Positions 41,901-53,100 of a stretch of 64,000 bases of DNA are shown piece by piece (position 1 is the first letter of the stretch; each line of letters begins with the position of its first letter). The notes under the pieces are model-generated. The model searched no databases. It was not told the DNA's origin and saw nothing but the letters and a program-made list of their open reading frames with translations. The stretch covers positions 434,001-498,000 of the forward strand of contig NW_026251723.1 of NCBI RefSeq assembly GCF_025024155.1. Direction: 5' to 3'. Source of the stretch: Gamsiella multidivaricata. Lineage: Eukaryota > Mortierellomycota > Mortierellomycetes > Mortierellales > Mortierellaceae. Both the position numbers and the translations under genes were made by a program.

Positions 41901-43590
41901 GGGCATGAGATGGATGAAGATTGTGAATGGGGTCTTTTTGACGAGGACGAGGCCCTGCCCGAGACGAAAAAGTCGATGAGTATGGACAGTATTGCCCCCT
42001 TTGCCCCCTTTCCGCCACCAACCCATGGATTCAGTCACAGCCGTACCCCGTCTCGGTTCTCGTTCTCTAGTCTACCTCGCGACCGACGCTCAAGCACTGG
42101 ATCCCTTATTCACTCATCACCCTGCGACATGGACTCGTTTGTAGCCAGCCGTCGTGGATCAGCCTCCTCGGCTTCCTCGGGCCCCTTGGGTCCCACAGGT
42201 CCAGGTCACAACGGCACTTTGAATCTGCCAGCTTGTGTGCATGCGCCGACGAGTTTTGCGGAGGGTGACATGACACCACTACAACTCCAGCCGATGGGTT
42301 CGATCCCGTTCATCAACAAGCGGATCAGTAGCCAGGCATACAGACAGAAGGTTACTTCATACGGAAATGCCAATACCGGTTCCAATACAGCATTAGTCTT
42401 CAGGGACAATGCTGAGGAAGTCTCTATGCATCCGTTGCAGAGGAGGTCAAGTCCGGTCCCTCCACCAATCGATTACTTGCCGATGAACACGCCGTTTATT
42501 GAAATCAAGGACGCGGCCATTGCTGCACAGCTGACTTGCGTTGAGTTTGGGCTGTTTAGGAAGCTAAAGGTAACCAAAAAAAAAAAAAAAAAAAAAAGAG
42601 TTGGGAGAATATCTATGAATGCTCGCATGCATGCGCGGGAGAACCAGAGATCGTAGATGGCCAGAAAGTATACTGACAAGTGTAAGAGATGCTTTCTGTT
42701 ATTTTTTTAATCCTCTAGCCTAGAGACATGCTGCGCCAAGTTTGGAAGACTAACAAGGGATCGGCCTCGTTCCAGGCTTGCATCGCTCATTTTAACTTTA
42801 TCTCATCGTGGGTCGGCACTATGATCCTGTCGCCCTCCAAAGTCAAGAACAGAGCCAAGATGATGGAGAAGTTCATCAATATTGCCAGGGTGAGTGGCTC
42901 GGCCTCATTCGGATAACATCAATATGTGACCAAGAAAGGGATGGTCGGTCGGTCATGATAGATCAATAGATTAACCCTGCTGTGTCTGATACATCTTAGA
43001 TCCTGCGCGGCATGGGCAACTTCAACACAACGATGGCGATCATCGGAGCGATGAATACGTCCTCGATCCATCGACTGGTTCAGACCAGAGAATTGTTGCA
43101 GGGAAAGGATGTTTGGACGACGTTCAAGGAACTGGAGCACCTTATGAGCTCTGAACGCAGCTTTTATGAATACCGTCAGGCTCTCAAGGCACAGAAGTTG
43201 CCGTGCATTCCATATCTGTAAGTTTGACTGAAAAGAGGTTCAAAATGTATCTTTCGTATTGGGCGAAGCAACAAACATTAAACTTTTTTTTTTCTTTCTA
43301 AAATTAGTGGCGTTCATTTGGGCGATCTGCTGTCGATCAGCGAGGGCAACCGCGACTTTCGCCAGGACGGAACCATTCACTGGCAAAAGTTTTGTCTGCT
43401 CACAGAGGTCATTTCGACCGTGATGCACTTCCACACGGAGTCGTATGGGATCCAGCCAGACCCGTTCATCTCCCGGGTGATCACAGACACACATGTTCTG
43501 GATGATGAGGAGCTGTACACGAAATCCGTCGGCACCGAGCCTGGGAAGCTGCACCACTCTCGTAGCCTCAGCAAATTCAACTTTTTTTGA
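38914..43590 (+). CDS. Ras guanine-nucleotide exchange factor (CDC25-like RasGEF)
   Basis: Seven exons: 38914-40598, 40790-40863, 41313-41460, 41573-42569, 42719-42889, 43000-43217 and 43308-43590, giving 1191 residues. It loads GTP onto Ras-type GTPases at membranes. The first 560 residues are Ser/Thr/Pro-rich and probably disordered. A RasGEF N-terminal (REM) domain spans about 575-690 (GVTLDDLVDQLTIPDYVNTL, then VFLLIYRKFLRPRELLEMFI and YYWLKHHP). After a second Ser-rich linker the catalytic domain covers about 935-1180 (DAAIAAQLTCVEFGLFRKLK, NFISSWVGTMIL, ILRGMGNFNTTMAIIGAMNT and PCIPYLGVHLGDLLSISEGN). The acceptor of exon 2 was set at 40789/40790 because the nearby CCCAG site would create a stop. 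No SH3 domain is seen. A 17-A run follows the exon 4 donor. Confidence 0.93.
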
Positions 43591-43903
43591 AAAAAAAAAA
43601 AAAAAAAAAAAAAAACCAGCTCGCATCTGTCTCCCATCATCCCTCATTCATTGTATATATTCATTTTTGCAAAACAAACAAGCAAACAAACAAAACCCCT
43701 CTTTATCGCCCAGCTAGCACCGTACTGCTACCACATTCGACACATCTTCATTGTACATTTTTATACTTTTTATTATCGCAACGCCGCGCCTTTGATCCTC
43801 CACACTACTGTTCTATTCACACGGGTAAGAACCATCTCTCGTAATAAACACTATCCCTTAGACCGTTTCAACTGGAAAGAGAGACAACCACCTAGGATAA
43901 AGT
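43591..43903. other. Spacer between RasGEF and Fanzor 3' ends
   Basis: Begins with a 26-A run right after the RasGEF stop, then AT-rich sequence. It should hold the RasGEF 3' UTR and, on the minus strand, the region downstream of the Fanzor stop where Fanzor guide (omega) RNAs are normally encoded. A 10-bp sequence AACCACCTAG at 43886-43895 recurs upstream of the XPG-like gene. Confidence 0.45.
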
Positions 43904-46496
43904 TTAACTGATACGGCCAGTACAGTTATTCTTGCTGGGTCGGCGAAGGGGCTCTAGGCGAGACAGGCTACTGATCCATTCGAGGCCAATATTAGCCAAA
44001 TTCTGAGCGCCCACGCAGTCCCTGTCTAGCCATCTCTGGCACCCATCCTCAAGACAGACGGACGCCCGATTCGCTGGCTTTGCCATTCTTCGGTCGTTGA
44101 TTTGTCGTACACAGCTTGGGCATTTCGATGACGTGAGATACTCATCCGAACAAACGACGGTGTACCCGAGGCTGTTTGCCTATGTAGTGCAATGGCATGC
44201 GGAAACATGGCATCAGTATCGACACTAGACTGAAAACAAGCAAATCGCAACGAATATCTTCAAAAAAATACCTTGTGGAAAACATACCCCTTGAAACTCT
44301 CGTGTAGCGATGCCAGCCTGGTATGAGTGTTGAAGTTTCCTGACCCGTATACAAACATCGCCGGTCTCGTTGGCCCAGTATGCATCCCGCCTTGTGGGTC
44401 CACAGTTCGCAATGTCCCATGCACGGCATGATCCTTCTCTGCCCGGCTTGCCTTTTTGAGCTCCCACAGCTTTTTTTTCATCGAACGGGATCCGTAAAAA
44501 TCGCGAAATGGTTGTAGGACATAGCTGAACTGTCGGAGGCCGTGCCGGCGTTCTTCCATGCTTACGAACGACGACGACGGCAGCGAGGCTTCCAATTCCG
44601 ATATGATAGGCGTCCCGCATGTGTACCCACTCAATTCTGCATCGTCTTTGATTGTGACAGTGGCCCGTTCGCGTTTTTTGGTCTCCAGCGCGGCTCTGAA
44701 TGACAAGTTGGGACTGTAGAGAGCGGAGCGTCTGATAGGCAGGTTCGTGACTTGGTTCGGTTTTCGGGGGTCCAGCGCACAAAATGATGCTGAAATTACT
44801 TCACCGGGGTCCACCCTCACCCCCACAACATTCTGGAGGCCTTGATCGAAAGCCTTTGCGAGAGATCCTTTGTTAGGAAATCGCGATGTAATCTCCGGGA
44901 TCCGCGCCTTAATTTGGATGACTGCCAACGTCGTCGTATGTCAAATGCCATTAGGTGGAGCTGAACTCCGTCTGTTCTCATCATATTGCTGATGGCATAG
45001 TGCTCCTTGACGCTGTCATTACTTGGGAGGTCGGGGGGCACGGGGGACTCCGTGCCTTCGGCAGCTGCTTGCTTCCTAGCCTTGTGATTTGCAAAGACCC
45101 TCTTCATGTACCCATCGAGTGCAGCTTGGCCGTATGTGTTTGGATGGTCCTTCAGCAATCGGTTCATGGTCGTTGTTTTCTTGCCATATGAAGTCTGGTT
45201 CTTGAGGGGATCCGCCTTGATCTCGACCTTGTCTCCGATAAACAGTAGTCGGAAAAGCTCCCCATATTTCTCTGATGCAAGTTCGTGGGCCGTCTCGGAA
45301 GAGCAGACTTGAGATTCCATGATATGCCGCGTAGGGTGCGTCTTTGAATTTGAATTGCCCCAAAGAAGTGAAAGAATGGCAGCCTCAGAGCACAAGATGA
45401 AAGAGTCTCCCAACTTCGACACTGAACAGAAAATAGGACGCAACTCCGACGGCATACGGAGAAAGTACCTCCACCAAGTTTGGATGTACCCCTTCTTAAA
45501 TGACATCTCGTCTTTCTGTTTATCGCCGTCGGAGCTCTCGTCATCCTCAACTGGAGGAATATCATCCGTGAATAAACGAGCACGCTTCAGCTAATAGAAA
45601 CAAGAAATAAACGTAAGTTCACAGTGGAAAAGCAAATCGACGCGAGATATGTCTTGTTCCGGACAGTGGAAATGTTACCTTATCCACGATGAACTTGGGC
45701 AGTCTCTGGAAATGTTCCCGAACCGCGGTCCGGACCTCCACCGCCAGTTCCGCCTGGATGACACTCAGGGGTATATCTTGGCAGTCCTTTGTCAGTGCGC
45801 AATATGAAAGAACGCTCTGGAAATCGTCATAAATCGAGCGCGCAATTGTTTTCGCCTGAATTGCCACTGAGTCTTTAGGTGGTCTCCCGCGGGGCGCTAC
45901 TGGACCATTCAGAATCAAAGAGATCAGATTTCTGGTGATAGTTTCTCCATATGCCTTGTGCAGAATGAGATCAAGTGGGTCCGCATTCTTGTCCTCCTTG
46001 TGCTGGACTTCCGGAACACTCGCTTGATTGACATCAATGTCCATATTATGTTCTGGTGCCGGGCGCGCTTGTTCTGGGTTGCATGCAGTGGCAGTGCGGA
46101 CTTCCTCCTGGATTCCTGATCCATTTGCTTCATCAATACCCAAGTTCTGGTCTGGTGTTGAGCGCGCTTGATCTGAATTGGATATGGTGGCGGCTCTGAC
46201 CTCCTTGTAGAGAAAAAGTTCAAGCGCTTTAAACACGAGAATACGAGTTTGGCTCATGATGTGGACCGCCTCATTGATGCGTTCCGCGACGATCTTGGTC
46301 TGGGCTACGCTCAGCTTCGTGGCGCGGTGCAGGCATCCTGTGATCGACCCTGCAGTCATTGTGGTAGTCTTGAAAGCCTCCCCGAACAAGTGCTTAGTCA
46401 AGTTAGCTCCGGCTCGCCTCTCCGCTTTTCATCATTTTCCTCGTCCTTCTTGGGGTTCGTCTTGATTTCACTCGTGGCCTTAGGATTATCATCCAT
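43904..46496 (-). pseudogene. Fanzor (TnpB-like RNA-guided nuclease), two apparent frameshifts
   Basis: Exons: 46496-45679, 45590-44272 and 44179-43904, about 804 codons if both shifts are ignored. Fanzors are eukaryotic TnpB relatives that cut DNA guided by an omega RNA. Landmarks: an N-terminal helical region with KTTTMTAGSITGCLHRATKL; RuvC-I NVVGVRVDPGEV (Asp); SELEASL and LKKA-type helices (MKKKLWELKKASRAEKDHAV); MFVYGSGNFN then SLHESFKGYVFHK; VVCSDEYLTSSKCPSC (late Glu and first zinc-ribbon pair); CLEDGCQRW (second pair) and RuvC-III LDRDCVGAQNLANIGL. Exon lengths are one nucleotide short in exons 1 and 2. Breaks fall near 46400 (between EPELT and KHLFGEAF) and near 44937 (between LHLMAFD and TTTLAVIQIKARIP). 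Either the gene is recently inactivated or the assembly has errors. Start ATG is a proposal. Confidence 0.88.
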
Positions 46497-46881
46497 GCTT
46501 CCGCCCTTCTTCTTCCGCGGGCGCGGTTCCTCGGGGTGGACATCTTTTTCAATGCGACCTTGTCAACCGGGCATGACTGGCTGACGTCCACGACAACACG
46601 AGGGGAATAACGAGCCGTTCCTGCTCTTGTACTAAGGGATAGTCCCAAAAATAAAATAAAATAAAATAAAATCAATAATATGATTGTATCAAAGCGACAA
46701 AGCTGTAAAAGGACGTAATGAATTTGAACTCGCAACAAAGTCATACGGCAATCATACCTGCTTCGTCTCCATTTTGCCTCCCGGGCTTTTTTACGTCTTG
46801 TTTTGCCTTTGGGGCGTCGCTTTCTCCGTTGCTGGGCGTTCCCTTTCTCGTGTCTGCGGCGACGGCGTCGGGTCTGAAGAA
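46497..46881. other. Junction between XPG-like and Fanzor genes
   Basis: After the XPG-like stop at 46882-46884 the same frame stays open for about 40 charged codons to a strong donor (GTATGA at 46757). Two acceptors fit. CTTAG at 46632 gives a short tail ending at a stop at 46549-46551, only about 50 bp before the proposed Fanzor ATG. AAAAG at 46544 would instead join this frame directly to the Fanzor N-terminal frame. A (TTTTA)n tract precedes the first acceptor. No separate Fanzor promoter is recognisable. Confidence 0.5.
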
Positions 46882-48499
46882 TCATCTGCTGTCCAGGCGT
46901 CTGCAGGCTGTGCTGGACAGGGAAGAAAACGCCAAGCCTGCAGAAGTGTCGCTGGTGAGTGTATCGGCTGGAGGATTTGTCCGCAAGGCTCGAGTCATAT
47001 TTCTCCTTTGCAGTTTGCACTTCTCGAGCTTCTGGAGTATGCCCGGTATTCTCTCGTGGGTCGTGCACGATGGCGTAGCGGAGTCAAGGTAGTCCTCACG
47101 CACTTGAACGAAAGCCGAAATGGCGTGGGTGTAGTCATCCACACCCTTTTTTTGTCCTCCTCTCACCCGTTGCAAATACTCTTGGATCAGCTCCTTGATA
47201 ATCTCAGCTTCAGTCGTCTTGGATCCTGGCGCGTCCATTGTTGATTCATCGCCTGCTCCGGTCTCGGTCCTCGTCTCTCGGATGATCTTGGTGTTTCTTT
47301 GGAAGCCGTGCCACGGGAGTGCCTTGGAGTAGTCGTCCTTAGTAACGATTGATGCCAGCAACAGCTCACGGTCGCAGGCGAGGTCCAGAGACTCGAGCAG
47401 GTCAGCCTTCTTGTACGTGGTAAGCTCTCGGTACTTTCCGACGGGTACAGTGATTTCTCTAACACCTTGATATACCATCATATCACTGTCGGCGGTAATG
47501 ATTGCGAGGTCGTCTTTGTTGTTATCAGCTTGATACAACTCGGCAATATACGTGTCTGCTTGGAAGGGACATTCGCAGGTGTGCCACTCCAAGATCTCCA
47601 GCCCATTTCTTATGTCTGCCAGCGCTGCCTTGGATGTCTTGTACGCGTTTCGATATTGCTTATACAGGGGGGCCAAAGAGTCGCTGTTTTCTCCTATGGC
47701 ATTGTCAACTCGCACCTCCAGAGTCTTGATCCGGTTGCTGAGGGATATGGCCCGATCTTGTCGCTCTTGAGACTTTTGTATCGAGGCCTTTCCGTCAAAG
47801 TGTAAAACTGTTGTCGATTTGCTAAAGTGCTTTGACATGATTTTGTTGAGATCATGCGCTATGTAATCGTAGTTCTGTGACTAGAGATGAGGCGGGAGCG
47901 AGGGACGAAGCAACAGAACATGTGTCAGCACTTGGTTGCTATGCTGCGTAAGCTGATACGAAACCATTGGCACATTTAATTACCTGCTCTGTTGTTCCAG
48001 GTCGGTCTGGTGTCAATCGTCCATTAGGGCCAATGAACAGTGCAGGATGTTGCACTCCGGCAGCCTGTACCTCGCTCGCATAGCTAGAGCAAGCCTTTCC
48101 TCGCTTGGATGGAGCCTCGGAGAAACTCAGGGCGCGCTTCTTGATGCCGCTTCTCCTGCTAGTGCTGGCGTCTGCAGCAGAAAGCGCGCCTTGCGCTGCT
48201 GAGGCTGTGGAGACTGCGAGGGCTGTGGGGGCTGCGGGGGCTGCGGGGGCTGTGGGAACTGCGAGAAAAGTCGCCGTTGCTGTTAGGATAGAAGCCGCTG
48301 ATGCGCTGGTAGTTGTCGTAGCCCTTGCCTCAGCTCTCGCTTCCTTGGCGACTCTGTTAAACGTCGCTTTGAAGGTCCTTGTTTGCAAGAATCCGAAGTA
48401 CAGACTTGAGACATCGACATGAACTTTCTTGTTCTGCAGATCATAAGCTAGCGTTCCTTTGGTGTCTTTTATAGCTTTGGGTAGCCCAGTGACTCCCAT
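46882..48499 (-). CDS. FEN1/XPG-like structure-specific nuclease (PIN-like fold)
   Basis: Two exons, 48499-47984 and 47880-46882, giving 504 residues. The start ATG gives MGVTGLPKAI, the classical FEN1/XPG N-terminus. XPG-N landmarks: KVHVDVSSLYFGFL and, after an Ala-rich insertion (about 55-110), VLHFDGKAS. The XPG-I region has ECPFQADTYIAELYQ, where the usual acidic EAEA pattern is reduced to QAD, then DDLAIITADSDMMVYQGV with both metal-binding Asp residues, and LLLASIVTKDDYSKALPWHGF for the H2TH region. Known members cut flaps, bubbles or 5' overhangs in DNA. The C-terminal third is charged and has no known domain. It lies immediately upstream of the Fanzor on the same strand. The final TGA may be a premature stop, because coding-like sequence continues in frame to a splice donor. 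Confidence 0.8.
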
Positions 48500-48960
48500 C
48501 TGGTACAATAAAGGCCAAGCCAAAGTAGACAGCTAATGAGGACCAAGTTTGGTGCATGTATCCATTCGCAGAAGCATTCAAGACTCACGTTGAGAATATG
48601 CGACAATGCTTGAGGGCTGATAAGGGAGTGGATGAGGAAAGGAGTGGGGTCAAGGATATGAGGAATGATGTTTCTTTTAAGACTCCAAAATCTACGTCCA
48701 AAATGTTTGTATGTTCATGCACTATGTTATGGAAATTGCAGTGTTCACACTGATCATCGATTATTTCATTCGTATCTAACAGTGATTGATCACTGTTCTC
48801 ATAAACCACCTAGACTAGGGCAGCGAAAAACTGCAGTTGCTGCAAGATAATGTATTTCGTGTCAGGAGAGGCGGATAGCAACAAGAATGAAGGCAATCAT
48901 TTATTCTAGACAACTGGGTTGTTAATTAACAACGTGAATTTCTCCAAAGGCCCCCTGTAT
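48500..48960. other. Upstream flank of the XPG-like gene with hairpin and palindrome
   Basis: AT-rich region. It holds a 9-bp perfect inverted repeat with a 2-nt loop (AACAGTGAT, TG, ATCACTGTT; 48778-48797), the 10-bp AACCACCTAG (48804-48813) that also occurs just beyond the Fanzor stop, and a 16-bp palindrome (GTTGTTAATTAACAAC; 48918-48933). It may contain the promoter of the XPG-like gene and one end of a mobile unit. Confidence 0.5.
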
Positions 48961-49877
48961 TCCTTTGCCAGTCACCCTTAAAATAATTCGATATGAAGGA
49001 TCGATTCATGGAAGTTATTTTGTGCTAGGTCCGCTAGGAGCTATGCGAGATTTTGGTCAATGTGCAGAATATGTCGCCCTCTTGAGTAGACCCCGACCTT
49101 ACTGGTCCTCTGCTCTTCGTTTATCGCTTTCCAGCTTGCCGAGGGACTCCACATGGTGTTCCGGAAAGATTTGCGCGAAGTTGTTGAACATTGTGTGGAC
49201 AGACCAGAGTACGGTCCAACTTGCACTTGAAAACGTCTGTCAGCAGTCAGAGGCCCACAAACAATAACTGGAGGATCAAGAGCCGAGGAAGGAAGAGTAA
49301 GAGGGCCATGGTGCTTTCGAAAGTACTGTTAGCCGGTGGCCCTTGTTCCTCCAACGTTTTCGTATTGCTGAGTTGGGCAAGGCGATAGAGGTCTTCTGAT
49401 CCAAGGCCATTCGCCGCCGCGTTGAAGTAGAATCCCCATTGTGGACACAGCACCTTAATCATGGAGCGAGCCTTCCCGCATTCTCAAACACCAAAAACAG
49501 GCAACGCTTGTGCTTCAGTCCTTCCTAGGACACGTTTGATCTGAGTCGCTGGGGGAGGGAGAGGAGGGGCGGAGCGTACTGTATCTGGAGGAGGCCCGCA
49601 AAAGAGCAGTCAGCGCCAATACGTCGCGGGGGTCGAATCAACCACTGAACGCCTCGGAATCCAGCGCGTCAAGTAGAGTGACATCGTGTTTGGCGGCAGT
49701 GAGGACAGGGATCGAAACGAGCCAGATAGTGAGCGCGGCCGTATCCACGTTGCTGAACCCGGCATCCTTCTTGGCCTTGATGCTCTTCTTGAGGCTGTAT
49801 ACTGTGTCCGTTGAGGAGATGACCCTTGACATGGATTGTCCCTCAGCGAGACAGAAGAGTGTCAGGATGTCAGTCTT
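48960..49877 (-). pseudogene. Degenerate Crinkler-like (CRN) gene
   Basis: On the minus strand, 49877-49638 encodes the ubiquitin-like CRN N-terminal module: TDILTLFCLAEGQ, DTVYSLKKSIKAKKDAGFSNV, AALTIWLVSIPV and LLDALDSEAFSG, then a stop. The expected initiator Met position reads Lys (AAG). Further down, in other frames, 49460-49247 carries CPQWGFYFNAAANGLGSEDL and FESTMALLLF-like sequence, typical of the P-loop/C-terminal region of fungal Crinkler-like proteins, followed by more fragments to about 48960 with stops and shifts. CRN proteins are host-cell-directed effectors in oomycetes and widespread proteins of uncertain function in Mortierella and Rhizophagus-type fungi. This copy has lost its start and has several breaks, so it is not functional. 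Confidence 0.7.
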
Positions 49878-50103
49878 CGAGTGGGGATTGCGAGAGAAGG
49901 GCGAGGGAGAGGGAAGAAAGAGATGGAGTGATGGAGTGATGGCGTATTGACATCCATGAAGAAAAGTCCTGCATTTGGACATAACAGTCCTTTGCCCTTT
50001 TTCAGTTGAGAACTTGAGACCCATTCGCTGCTCCCTTCTGTCCTCCTCACCTTTTCTGTTCTCTCTCTCTACAACCGTCTTACCACCTATATCCCTGTAC
50101 CTC

Positions 50104-53100
50104 ATGGTCGATCTTCCAGAACGTACCGACGGGTCTAATCCCCATTTCGGGGACGCTGCCCACATTAGCACTTATGCAAACGTCGCAGCCCATGGCACCA
50201 GCAACGACTCGTCTCACCACAACAGCGATACCTATGCAGGCGTCGTGGCCCATCGCACCAGCAGCGATACATCTCACCATGTCAGTGGCACCTACGCAGA
50301 TGTTGCGGCCCATGGCACCAGCAGTGAGCCGTCTCACCATTTCAGCGGCACCCACGCAGACGTCGCGGCCCATCACACCAGCGGCGATCCGCCTCACCAT
50401 GTCAGTGGCACCTACGCAGATGTCGCGGCCCATGGTACCAGCAGTGAGCCGTCTCACCATTTCAGCAACACCCACGCAGACGTTGCGGCCCATCGTATCA
50501 GCGACGATGCACCTTACCATGTCAGCGGCACCTACGCAGACGTCACGGCTCATCGTAGCAGCAGCAGCATCAGGGTTTCGAAAGGCGGTGCCTATGCACC
50601 CCACCACAAAGGCGACACCAATGGCGGCCATGAGACTTCCAATGGAGCCGTCAGCATGGGTACGAGTGATAGCATTGCTGGTGGTCTGCATCGTCCCGGG
50701 TCGAATGTGGCTCCGCCGATGTACAAGGCGATTCGATTCTTTTTCGAGATCTGTCTCCACTCGTTCTATGGCAATGTTGAAGTTGAAGGGACAGAGAATA
50801 TTGCACCGGATAACTACCCGGCTATCCTCGGTAAGCTATCTAGCTATCTATTGTCTTGTTTGGGTATGAGGCGGTGGTAGTGGTGGAAACGGATACGTCC
50901 GGAGAAACAAGGTGCAGGATGGTTGGTGATTCTACATTATGTCATTCAAAGTTAATGCAAGACCATGTAGTACTGACACGATTTCATGTGTAAATGTTCC
51001 TCTTCTCCCCCTCCCCCCCTCTCCCCCCCTCCCCTTCTTACGCTAGTGGCGAATCATAGCAACAGTTTGACGGATGCCATTGCAATTCTGTCGACAGTCC
51101 CGCCCAAGATCCGGAGTATGGTCCGCTTGACGGCCAAGGACACCTTCTGGCACAAGCCTGGAGTCTTCAAGTATGTGCTAATTTTGACTTCACGGCTGAC
51201 TGTTGATTTGCGCGAAAAGTACAAAGGGATCACAATTAAACGGCCATGTCTCTTTGCATTTGCTCCATTGTTCGCCCGGTTCATTGTCCGCCTCGTAGCT
51301 ATGTCATCAAGAGCGCTGGGACGATTCCGATTAAGCGGCGAAAGGACTATGAGAACCAGAAAGTTGACAACACGGAAACCATGGGCGCTTTGATCGATAG
51401 CCTGGGAACTGGAAGCTGTGTATGGTAAGTGCGACAGAAGCAACACGGGTTGCTCTTGGGAAGAGTTCATTGTTTCCGCAGTGCTTTTGCTGCTGTGAAA
51501 TCATAGCGATCGGCGCGTGTGTATTGCTATTTTTGCACGTGCATACAGAATACGTGAGAAGTTTATGCAGATGTGGGGGTCGTGCACGACTATTGGACAA
51601 AACAAAGACATGGTGGGGGGATTTCGCATGATGGTTCAAGCTAGGCTTGCGATTGAGCTGTTTATCTAACATGTACACGTTTATGATGTGGTTGACGTGG
51701 ATAGCATGTTCCCCGAAGGCATTTCCCGGTACCATCCTCAGCTGGCGCCTTTCAAGGCCGGCGTCGCCATGATCGCGAGTGATGTACGTGAACGTTGAAC
51801 GCTGTGTTGACATTTGTCGTTTGATGATCCGACCAAAATGATTTGTCATCCGAATTCGTAGTAGTTTTTAATCGTCCCTCATTTTCTATGTATCCTACGT
51901 GTGCTCCTTCATTCATAGACCCTTGCGAGGTACCAGGACATGCCTGACTTCTCTCTGACGTTGGTGACGACGTCGATCAACTACTTGCACCGTGAAAAGT
52001 TCCGTTCCGATGTCGTGGTGACGTTCCATGCACCGATTGTCTTGACACCTCAGCAAGACGCGAAACTTTTCTCAGCGGACAAGCAAGAGAAAACAGAGGC
52101 GATCCGCAAACTGACTGAGCTATTGGAGAGCACAGTGAGATCGACTTTGCTAGATGCTCAGGACTGGGAGACTGTCCGAATTGGACATACGGCGCGGAAG
52201 CTGTATGCAGGTGATTTGGGAACCAGGATCTCGCTGGGCCAGTATGTACGTCTGACCAGGAAATTCGTCTCGGCATTTAGTCAGCACAAGCAGGAGACGG
52301 CAACTGCAAAACTGGAGGATGGATCACCGATCGGGGATAAGAACGGGGATTCATTAGAGATGAAGCAGCCGGTCAAGATGGATGCGGAAACTGTCAAGAA
52401 GATTGATGAGCTGGCGAAGGATCTTGCAGTACGTTTTGCTTCTGCGCATTCTTTTTTTATTTTTTATAGAGTGTTGGGTATTCGATATCGTGTTATGTTA
52501 AAGATCAAATGTGTTGACTCCCTAAATCTTCTCGTGCAACTTAGGAATACCAAGATCAACTGGACTTTTATCATCTCAAGGACTACCGCATCAAGCAGGG
52601 CAAACCCTCAGTGAGGGTGCTTTTCGGAAAACTGTTTCAACGATCCTTGCTGGCTTGTCTATTGTCCACGATCTGTCTCCCTGGACTCTTCCTTTGGGCG
52701 CCCGTCTTCATCGCAATCAAGTATGTTCTTTAGAATGCAACTGCGTTTATGATGATTTTATCATCCTGTCTTTATCAAAGCCCTGACTGCCGTGCAATTG
52801 CTCGATATTATCGAAACATAGGTACCAAGAGAGAAAGATTCGCAAAAAGGGGCCGCTGGAGGATAACCTGGATGAGATTGCACAGTACAAATTGATGATC
52901 GCGTCCTTCTTCCTGCCAGTGATCTGGGGCTTCTGGGTCTTGGTGACCCTCCCGATTGCGCTGTTCAGCGGCCCCGGCATTGTCATCTTGATGTGGCTGT
53001 AAGCGAAGGATTTTATCGACAACATTATTATATTTATGTCTCCATCTATTAGTCAACTGTGGTGCTAACGCCTACTATTCTGTCTTCATGTAGTACGATC

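Follow-up and report, generated by a model that had tools for sequence, protein, structure and literature searches.

A Fanzor1-type nuclease in a decayed DNA transposon of the fungus Gamsiella multidivaricata is linked, and probably fused, to an XPG/Rad2/FEN-type nuclease

The closest described relatives of the locus reported here are the Fanzor1 proteins SpuFz1 of Spizellomyces punctatus and GtFz1 of Guillardia theta, which share with it the aspartate of RuvC-I, a glutamate repositioned to six residues ahead of the zinc ribbon, and the RD motif and which are likewise carried by eukaryotic transposons with inverted ends. According to the accessible text of PMC3627910, SpuFz1 is encoded by a single open reading frame of 633 amino acids in an element of 2.1 kb. 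The same text describes Fanzor1 elements in Mucor, Rhizopus, and Phycomyces that have MuDR-like terminal inverted repeats and 9-bp duplications (Bao and Jurka 2013, PMC3627910); like the family described below, they are fungal, occur in several copies, and hold Fanzor1 in DNA transposons without a transposase of their own. It also describes PGv-1, which resembles the present locus in combining a Fanzor with a second nuclease within one mobile element but differs from it in that the proteins are separate and the second nuclease is of the GIY-YIG rather than the XPG type. What a Fanzor does for its host transposon is presented as an open question in the accessible text of Saito et al. 2023.

We analyzed a 64,000-nucleotide stretch of the G. 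multidivaricata genome, here called the window, in which an earlier note had read a gene for a Fanzor RNA-guided nuclease. That reading stands as regards the TnpB/Fanzor superfamily, the Fanzor signatures, and the carriage by a transposon, but the copy in the window is frame-broken, and a linked XPG-type nuclease, a larger element, and a probable fusion had been overlooked. The window gene is not an ordinary lone Fanzor. It is probable, in our view, that the locus is a decayed DNA transposon of about 5.1 kb encoding a structure-specific nuclease of the XPG/Rad2/FEN type and, behind a basic linker, an RNA-guided nuclease of the Fanzor1 type, most likely as one fused protein; we regard this as the best explanation because of the Fanzor signatures, the XPG homology, the linkage of the two on the same strand, and the sharp ends in unrelated flanks. 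Between the window element and those of SpuFz1 and GtFz1, only the former has such a linked, probably fused XPG-type nuclease.

The element extends from a sharp end at position 43852 to about position 48954 and is read on the minus strand, well beyond the Fanzor exons. Its 3' end (43852 to 43903) has a sharp terminus that begins TATCCCTTA on the plus strand. The last Fanzor exon (43904 to 44179) follows, with DEYLTSSKC containing the repositioned glutamate, a zinc ribbon, and the RD of RuvC-III; ahead of this zinc-ribbon exon lies a putative intron with GT..AG ends (44180 to 44271), and other families are broken at the same place. The Fanzor core exon with the RuvC-I motif VDPGEV (44272 to 45590), a second putative intron with GT..AG ends (45591 to 45678), and a helical-looking N-terminal Fanzor exon (45679 to 46631) complete the Fanzor part. 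Upstream of it are a putative joining intron with GT..AG ends (46632 to 46757), the XPG/Rad2/FEN-type nuclease part (46758 to 48499) with its start codon at 48497 to 48499 (MGVTGLPKAIKD), and the 5' region of the element (48500 to 48954). The homology of the window copy to the C167, C147, C18, and C123 copies ends at 48953 to 48954, and the right end of the element, with the right terminal repeat, is absent from the window copy.

The motifs pointed out in the earlier note (VGVRVDPGEV, SLHESFKGYVFHK, DEYLTSSKCPSC, CLEDGC, and RDCVGAQN) were all found on the minus strand, in the frames at 44260 to 44940 and 43904 to 44179. Its division into three spliced exons was right to the extent that there are two intron-like GT..AG stretches (44180 to 44271 and 45591 to 45678) but not for the break in the core, where the window frames at 44260 to 44940 and 44817 to 45590 overlap rather than abut at splice sites. 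Since the C1 copy has one open frame of 519 amino acids there, this break, which lies between 44817 and 44940, reflects a disrupted frame in the window copy. Counted against open relatives, the window copy has at least four breaks: the core has one, the N-terminal part two (near 46430 to 46530), and the XPG frame one, at its end (near 46900). It is decayed, with several frame breaks in addition to the putative introns, and therefore holds no working nuclease gene in its present state. No end-to-end open copy was found among the copies read in the genome; the C1 copy loses the frame in its first XPG exon and the C93 copy inside its XPG part.

The element starts about 260 bp past the last codon of its left neighbor, a RasGEF-domain gene (43000 to 43590, plus strand; E=3.3e-19). 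On the other side, just upstream of the XPG part, the N-terminal domain of Crinkler effectors (PF20147, E=4.4e-10) is encoded by an open reading frame on the minus strand (49638 to 50168). Parts of this region recur at several further locations in the genome, and the C19 copy matches the window beyond 48954, as far as 49786, covering part of the Crinkler-type open reading frame.

The RuvC-I part by itself had no match in Pfam, NCBIfam, or the PDB, and the family assignment therefore comes from the last exon and from residue signatures. In a profile search, the last exon (43904 to 44179) passed the cut-off of the Pfam model PF07282 (Cas12f1-like_TNB), if barely, with 26.6 bits against 26.3 bits (E=6.7e-6). 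The homologous last exon of the C12 family scored 2.3e-11, and all five last-exon pieces searched, which come from different families, matched this model. When compared with the PDB, a profile built from the five pieces found the mimivirus TnpB-like L79 (E=2.1e-9); its scores for GtFz1 (0.0088) and SpuFz1 (0.01) are marginal and add little, because the unrelated zinc proteins eS27 and Pygopus score at a similar level (0.003 to 0.004). Fanzor marks given in the accessible text of Yoon et al. 2023 (PMC10711439) are DPG and a glutamate six residues ahead of the zinc finger. The window has VDPGEV at RuvC-I, where DLG, DIG, or DAG replaces DPG in some other Fanzor-like families of this genome, and the glutamate stands at the marked distance both in the window (E-YLTSSK-C) and in the C12 family (E-YYTSKK-C). 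The window also fits the motif D-x(125,275)-[TS][TS]xx-C4 zinc finger-x(5,50)-RD, given in the accessible text of Bao and Jurka 2013 (PMC3627910), with a second cysteine pair that is C-x4-C, not CxxC. Comparison with other copies in the same genome gave at least 94 matches to the core exon, so that the motifs are not a product of chance. A pattern search of viral contigs gave one match and no relative. By these signatures and its last exon, the predicted window protein belongs to the Fanzor family.

Directly upstream of the Fanzor part, at 46882 to 48499, lies a nuclease of the XPG/Rad2/FEN1 family. Nucleases of this family have an N-terminal MG-x-x-x-L and a full set of acidic residues, and XPG relatives cut bubbles and 5' flaps. 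The XPG part of the window begins MGVTGLP at 48499, and the likeness to XPG/Rad2/FEN1 nucleases lies in the MG-x-x-x-L start and the DG, E-A-D, D-x-D, and NDY acidic residues, which recur across diverged families of the genome. The window-type partner differs from the known enzymes in being multicopy, in being linked or fused to a Fanzor, and in having QAD for EAD, i.e., a glutamine in place of one catalytic glutamate; the C175-type partner has the MG-x-x-x-L start and the acidic residue set, including E-A-D. Single sequences matched weakly (rad2, 8.6e-5; fen_arch, 5.3e-5 with a C1 relative; Rad2 in the PDB, 1.3e-5), and their Pfam matches were all below the cut-off. A profile of 11 XPG sequences matched yeast Rad2 with E=1.1e-12, followed by an XPG/FEN1 chimera (1.2e-9), ERCC-5 (3.7e-8), FEN1 (3e-6), and EXO1 (4.7e-4). 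A single predicted structure of the window XPG frame had a pLDDT of 36.5 and was unusable as a model. Upstream of the XPG part in the C93 copy, the other strand has an open reading frame of 251 amino acids (L063, 2804 to 3556, plus strand); this frame looked by eye like a transposase and was dropped as such when no Pfam family matched it.

The pairing of the two nucleases recurs throughout the genome. Merging of genome matches into loci gave at least 123 Fanzor-like and at least 87 XPG-like loci in 37.5 Mb, and the idea that fungal Fanzors are few does not fit this one genome, even with many of the loci being fragments. Among the matches listed, 61 of the 123 Fanzor loci are preceded, on their own strand and no more than 6 kb away, by an XPG locus, at distances of 971 to 3335 bases, compared with 4 of 123 with XPG downstream on the same strand and 7 of 123 with XPG on the opposite strand; seen from the other side, 62 of the 87 XPG loci listed have a Fanzor downstream. 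Random placement of equal numbers of loci with a reach of 7 kb (2000 runs) gave a mean of 0.98 linked loci and a maximum of 5. Contig ends account for just a part of the loci that are unpaired among the matches listed (62 of 123 Fanzor and 25 of 87 XPG), and the unpaired Fanzor loci also include fragments. Where the XPG part of a paired locus is at least 55% similar to that of the window, the Fanzor part is also close (63 to 89%), and the remaining pairs are low in both; this parallel similarity fits joint inheritance of the two parts.

How the two frames meet bears on whether one protein or two are made. Splicing in the window family from a donor, AG|GTATGATTG, to an AG acceptor would carry the XPG frame into the Fanzor N-terminal frame, and such an in-frame join is possible in all five window-family copies that have a long XPG frame (C24, C108, C113, C1, and C19). 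These have 369 to 374 amino acids of XPG frame open upstream of the join; past it, the frame continues for 308 to 314 amino acids in C24, C108, and C1, for 129 in C19, and for 126 in C113, whose acceptor differs from the TAG used by the other four. The upstream frames are shorter (41 to 108 amino acids) in the window, C44, C46, and C18 copies, and no donor match was found in C134 or in the second C24 copy. Elsewhere, the C93 copy can be joined in frame through an intron of 95 nucleotides and the C175 and C135 copies through introns of 98 and 97 nucleotides; one join attempt with the C139 copy found none. Between 4 and 13 candidate introns fit each of the C93, C175, and C135 joins, and the fit by itself is therefore weak evidence. 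That candidate GT..AG introns able to join both frames occur in three diverged families suggests one fused protein. The stretch RRRRRRHEK..KGKARRKK between the XPG and Fanzor halves is basic and may act as a nuclear-localization linker. The joining intron ends (46632) in a copy of TATCCCTTAG that was considered as possibly meaningful; among the copies listed it is exact only in the window and C46, and it was put down to chance.

It is possible, though we doubt it, that the XPG-type nuclease and the Fanzor are instead two neighboring genes, carried together by one transposon and translated separately. In copies of the C175 and C93 types, the proposed donor overlaps with a TAA at which the XPG frame could end, leaving two proteins; the XPG frame of the window family reads through the donor with no such stop. 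An ATG close to where the N-terminal Fanzor exon begins (MSIEEPRPRKKK) would suit separate translation, and the accessible text of PMC3627910 offers a precedent in PGv-1, with its separate Mariner transposase, GIY-YIG endonuclease, and Fanzor1; the five joinable copies out of five with a long XPG frame weigh the other way. We conclude that in-frame joining of XPG and Fanzor by splicing is supported, not proved, by these comparisons.

The XPG-Fanzor unit is mobile, as is seen in its precise 3' ends within unrelated flanks and in a short derivative with both ends. All ten C12-family copies examined, a count from which three further partial copies are excluded, end at the identical base with unrelated flanks beyond. 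The window shares the terminus TATCCCTT with 10 of 12 further window-family loci in the alignment, also in unrelated flanks, and the terminal 18-mer had 14 genome matches with up to two mismatches, against 0 for the reversed control. The short derivative in C116 (L092, C116:173001-173900) keeps both ends (TATCCCTTCC.. and ..CTACGGGATA), and the C123 copy has the right end ..GGAGGAAGGGATA; from these, the family inverted repeat is TATCCCTT, with one mismatch within C116. The C126 copy has lost the first three bases of the terminus (TAT). Short derivatives in C116 (L092), C123 (L095), and C126 (L094) retain the last Fanzor exon or the 3' end and resemble the "ghost loci" described in the accessible text of Saito et al. 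2023. The terminal repeat TATCCCTT and the failure to find a 9-bp duplication set the window family apart from the Mucor, Rhizopus, and Phycomyces elements, in whose published description, as far as accessible, XPG is not mentioned.

A piggyBac-like element adjoins four of the ten window-family copies examined on the side of the right end (C113, C134, C108, and C19), and C1 keeps 17 bp of it; C1, C134, and C108 are not independent, because one junction is common to all three. The adjoining end reads TATCCCTTACTCTG, the piggyBac-like element and the Fanzor unit both start TATCCCTTA, and a transposase fragment matched PF13843 (DDE_Tnp_1_7) at 1e-17. In C113, the piggyBac-like element (L035/L082) has an open frame of 623 amino acids and the ends TATCCCTTACTCTGTAC and ..ACAGAGTAAGGGATA. 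piggyBac elements duplicate a TTAA target. The Fanzor unit differs from them in that TTAA was not seen at its ends, which read TAT|CCC..GGG|ATA, and in that it carries no transposase; none was found in the window copy either, and no target duplication could be established at the element ends. LINE-like retrotransposition was considered when C12-family copies seemed truncated at the 5' side and was rejected: 7 of 10 reach a contig end or break off no more than 4 bases short of one (C140, C111, C33, C88, C121, C62, and C12), the C98 and C131 copies stop inside a contig, the C93 copy continues, and no RVT_1 match was found closer than 9 kb to any of the ten. The seven contig-end copies are near-identical and all in the same orientation.

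It is unlikely that the elements are dead remnants whose family function is lost and whose linkage reflects shared ancestry only. The broken frames of the window copy, the stops in many matches, and the absence of an end-to-end open copy among those read would agree with such decay, but the ten C12-family copies are about 93 to 100% identical in their protein matches, which makes their spread recent, and dN/dS, as point estimates, was below 1 in all computable pairs. By the Nei-Gojobori method, these estimates were 0.24 to 0.53 for window-type XPG (15 pairs), 0.32 to 0.84 for C175-type XPG (6 pairs), and 0.45 to 0.56 for the Fanzor core exon (3 pairs), with 0.69 for a further Fanzor pair; three cross-family pairs were saturated. 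Also improbable is a role of the XPG part in transposition itself (e.g., in processing 5' flaps at the transposon ends) beside an independent Fanzor that serves maintenance. The flap activity of XPG relatives and a window-family unit without its own transposase would suit this idea; against it, the terminal inverted repeats and the piggyBac-like transposase next to 4 of 10 copies speak for an ordinary transposase acting in trans.

Between the Fanzor stop codon and the end of the element lie 52 nucleotides, a candidate for the end of a guide RNA. Two helices in this 3'-end region keep 96.4% of their pairs across 11 copies with 0 compensatory changes, which is not above shuffles; folds of single 3' ends were unremarkable (z from -1.62 to 0.17), and two Rfam matches to the region were both below threshold. 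Terminal repeats contribute to the guide-RNA scaffold of Fanzors according to the accessible text of Yoon et al. 2023 (PMC10711439), and by analogy a place for the terminal repeat of this element in the guide scaffold would fit.

If the XPG and Fanzor parts form one protein, as we prefer to think, the 3' end of the element could supply a guide RNA that directs the Fanzor to the matching empty site on the sister or homologous chromosome, where the Fanzor part would open an R-loop and then cut. The XPG part could trim the border of the R-loop or the 5' end, so that repair by copying the element back would be favored. Movement itself would probably occur in trans by means of a transposase, perhaps a piggyBac-like one with a similar terminus. 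Both nucleases may act jointly in this way, and we tentatively propose a natural RNA-guided fusion of two nucleases in which R-loop formation and cutting fall to the Fanzor, and the fused XPG/FEN part processes the border of the R-loop or the 5' ends toward copy-back repair.

Fanzor1 in fungal transposons has already been published; the XPG partner and the likely fusion are likely new. No XPG partner of a Fanzor was found in the main texts of the open-licence literature, and we claim only weakly that none has been published. The same literature yielded no Fanzor in Mortierella, and for TnpB, XPG, and transposon together, it yielded only work on Cas12a R-loops, as far as the accessible text goes. 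In their accessible main texts, Saito 2023 and Yoon 2023 (PMC10711439) do not mention XPG, exonuclease, or piggyBac, Xu 2024 does not mention XPG, FEN1, or exonuclease, and Bao and Jurka 2013 (PMC3627910) do not mention XPG or exonuclease.

A second nuclease that evolves under constraint and that splicing appears to place in one protein with the Fanzor hints at what happens after the cut, and the XPG-Fanzor pairing makes the scheme of cutting and then copying back testable. The several diverged families within one genome are a good natural panel for work on guide RNAs and target motifs, and the XPG-Fanzor may provide a ready-made RNA-guided enzyme with end processing built in. Engineered fusions of RNA-guided nucleases with flap nucleases or exonucleases exist. 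If true, the two-nuclease fusion would be a eukaryotic counterpart of these, present in many families in one genome.
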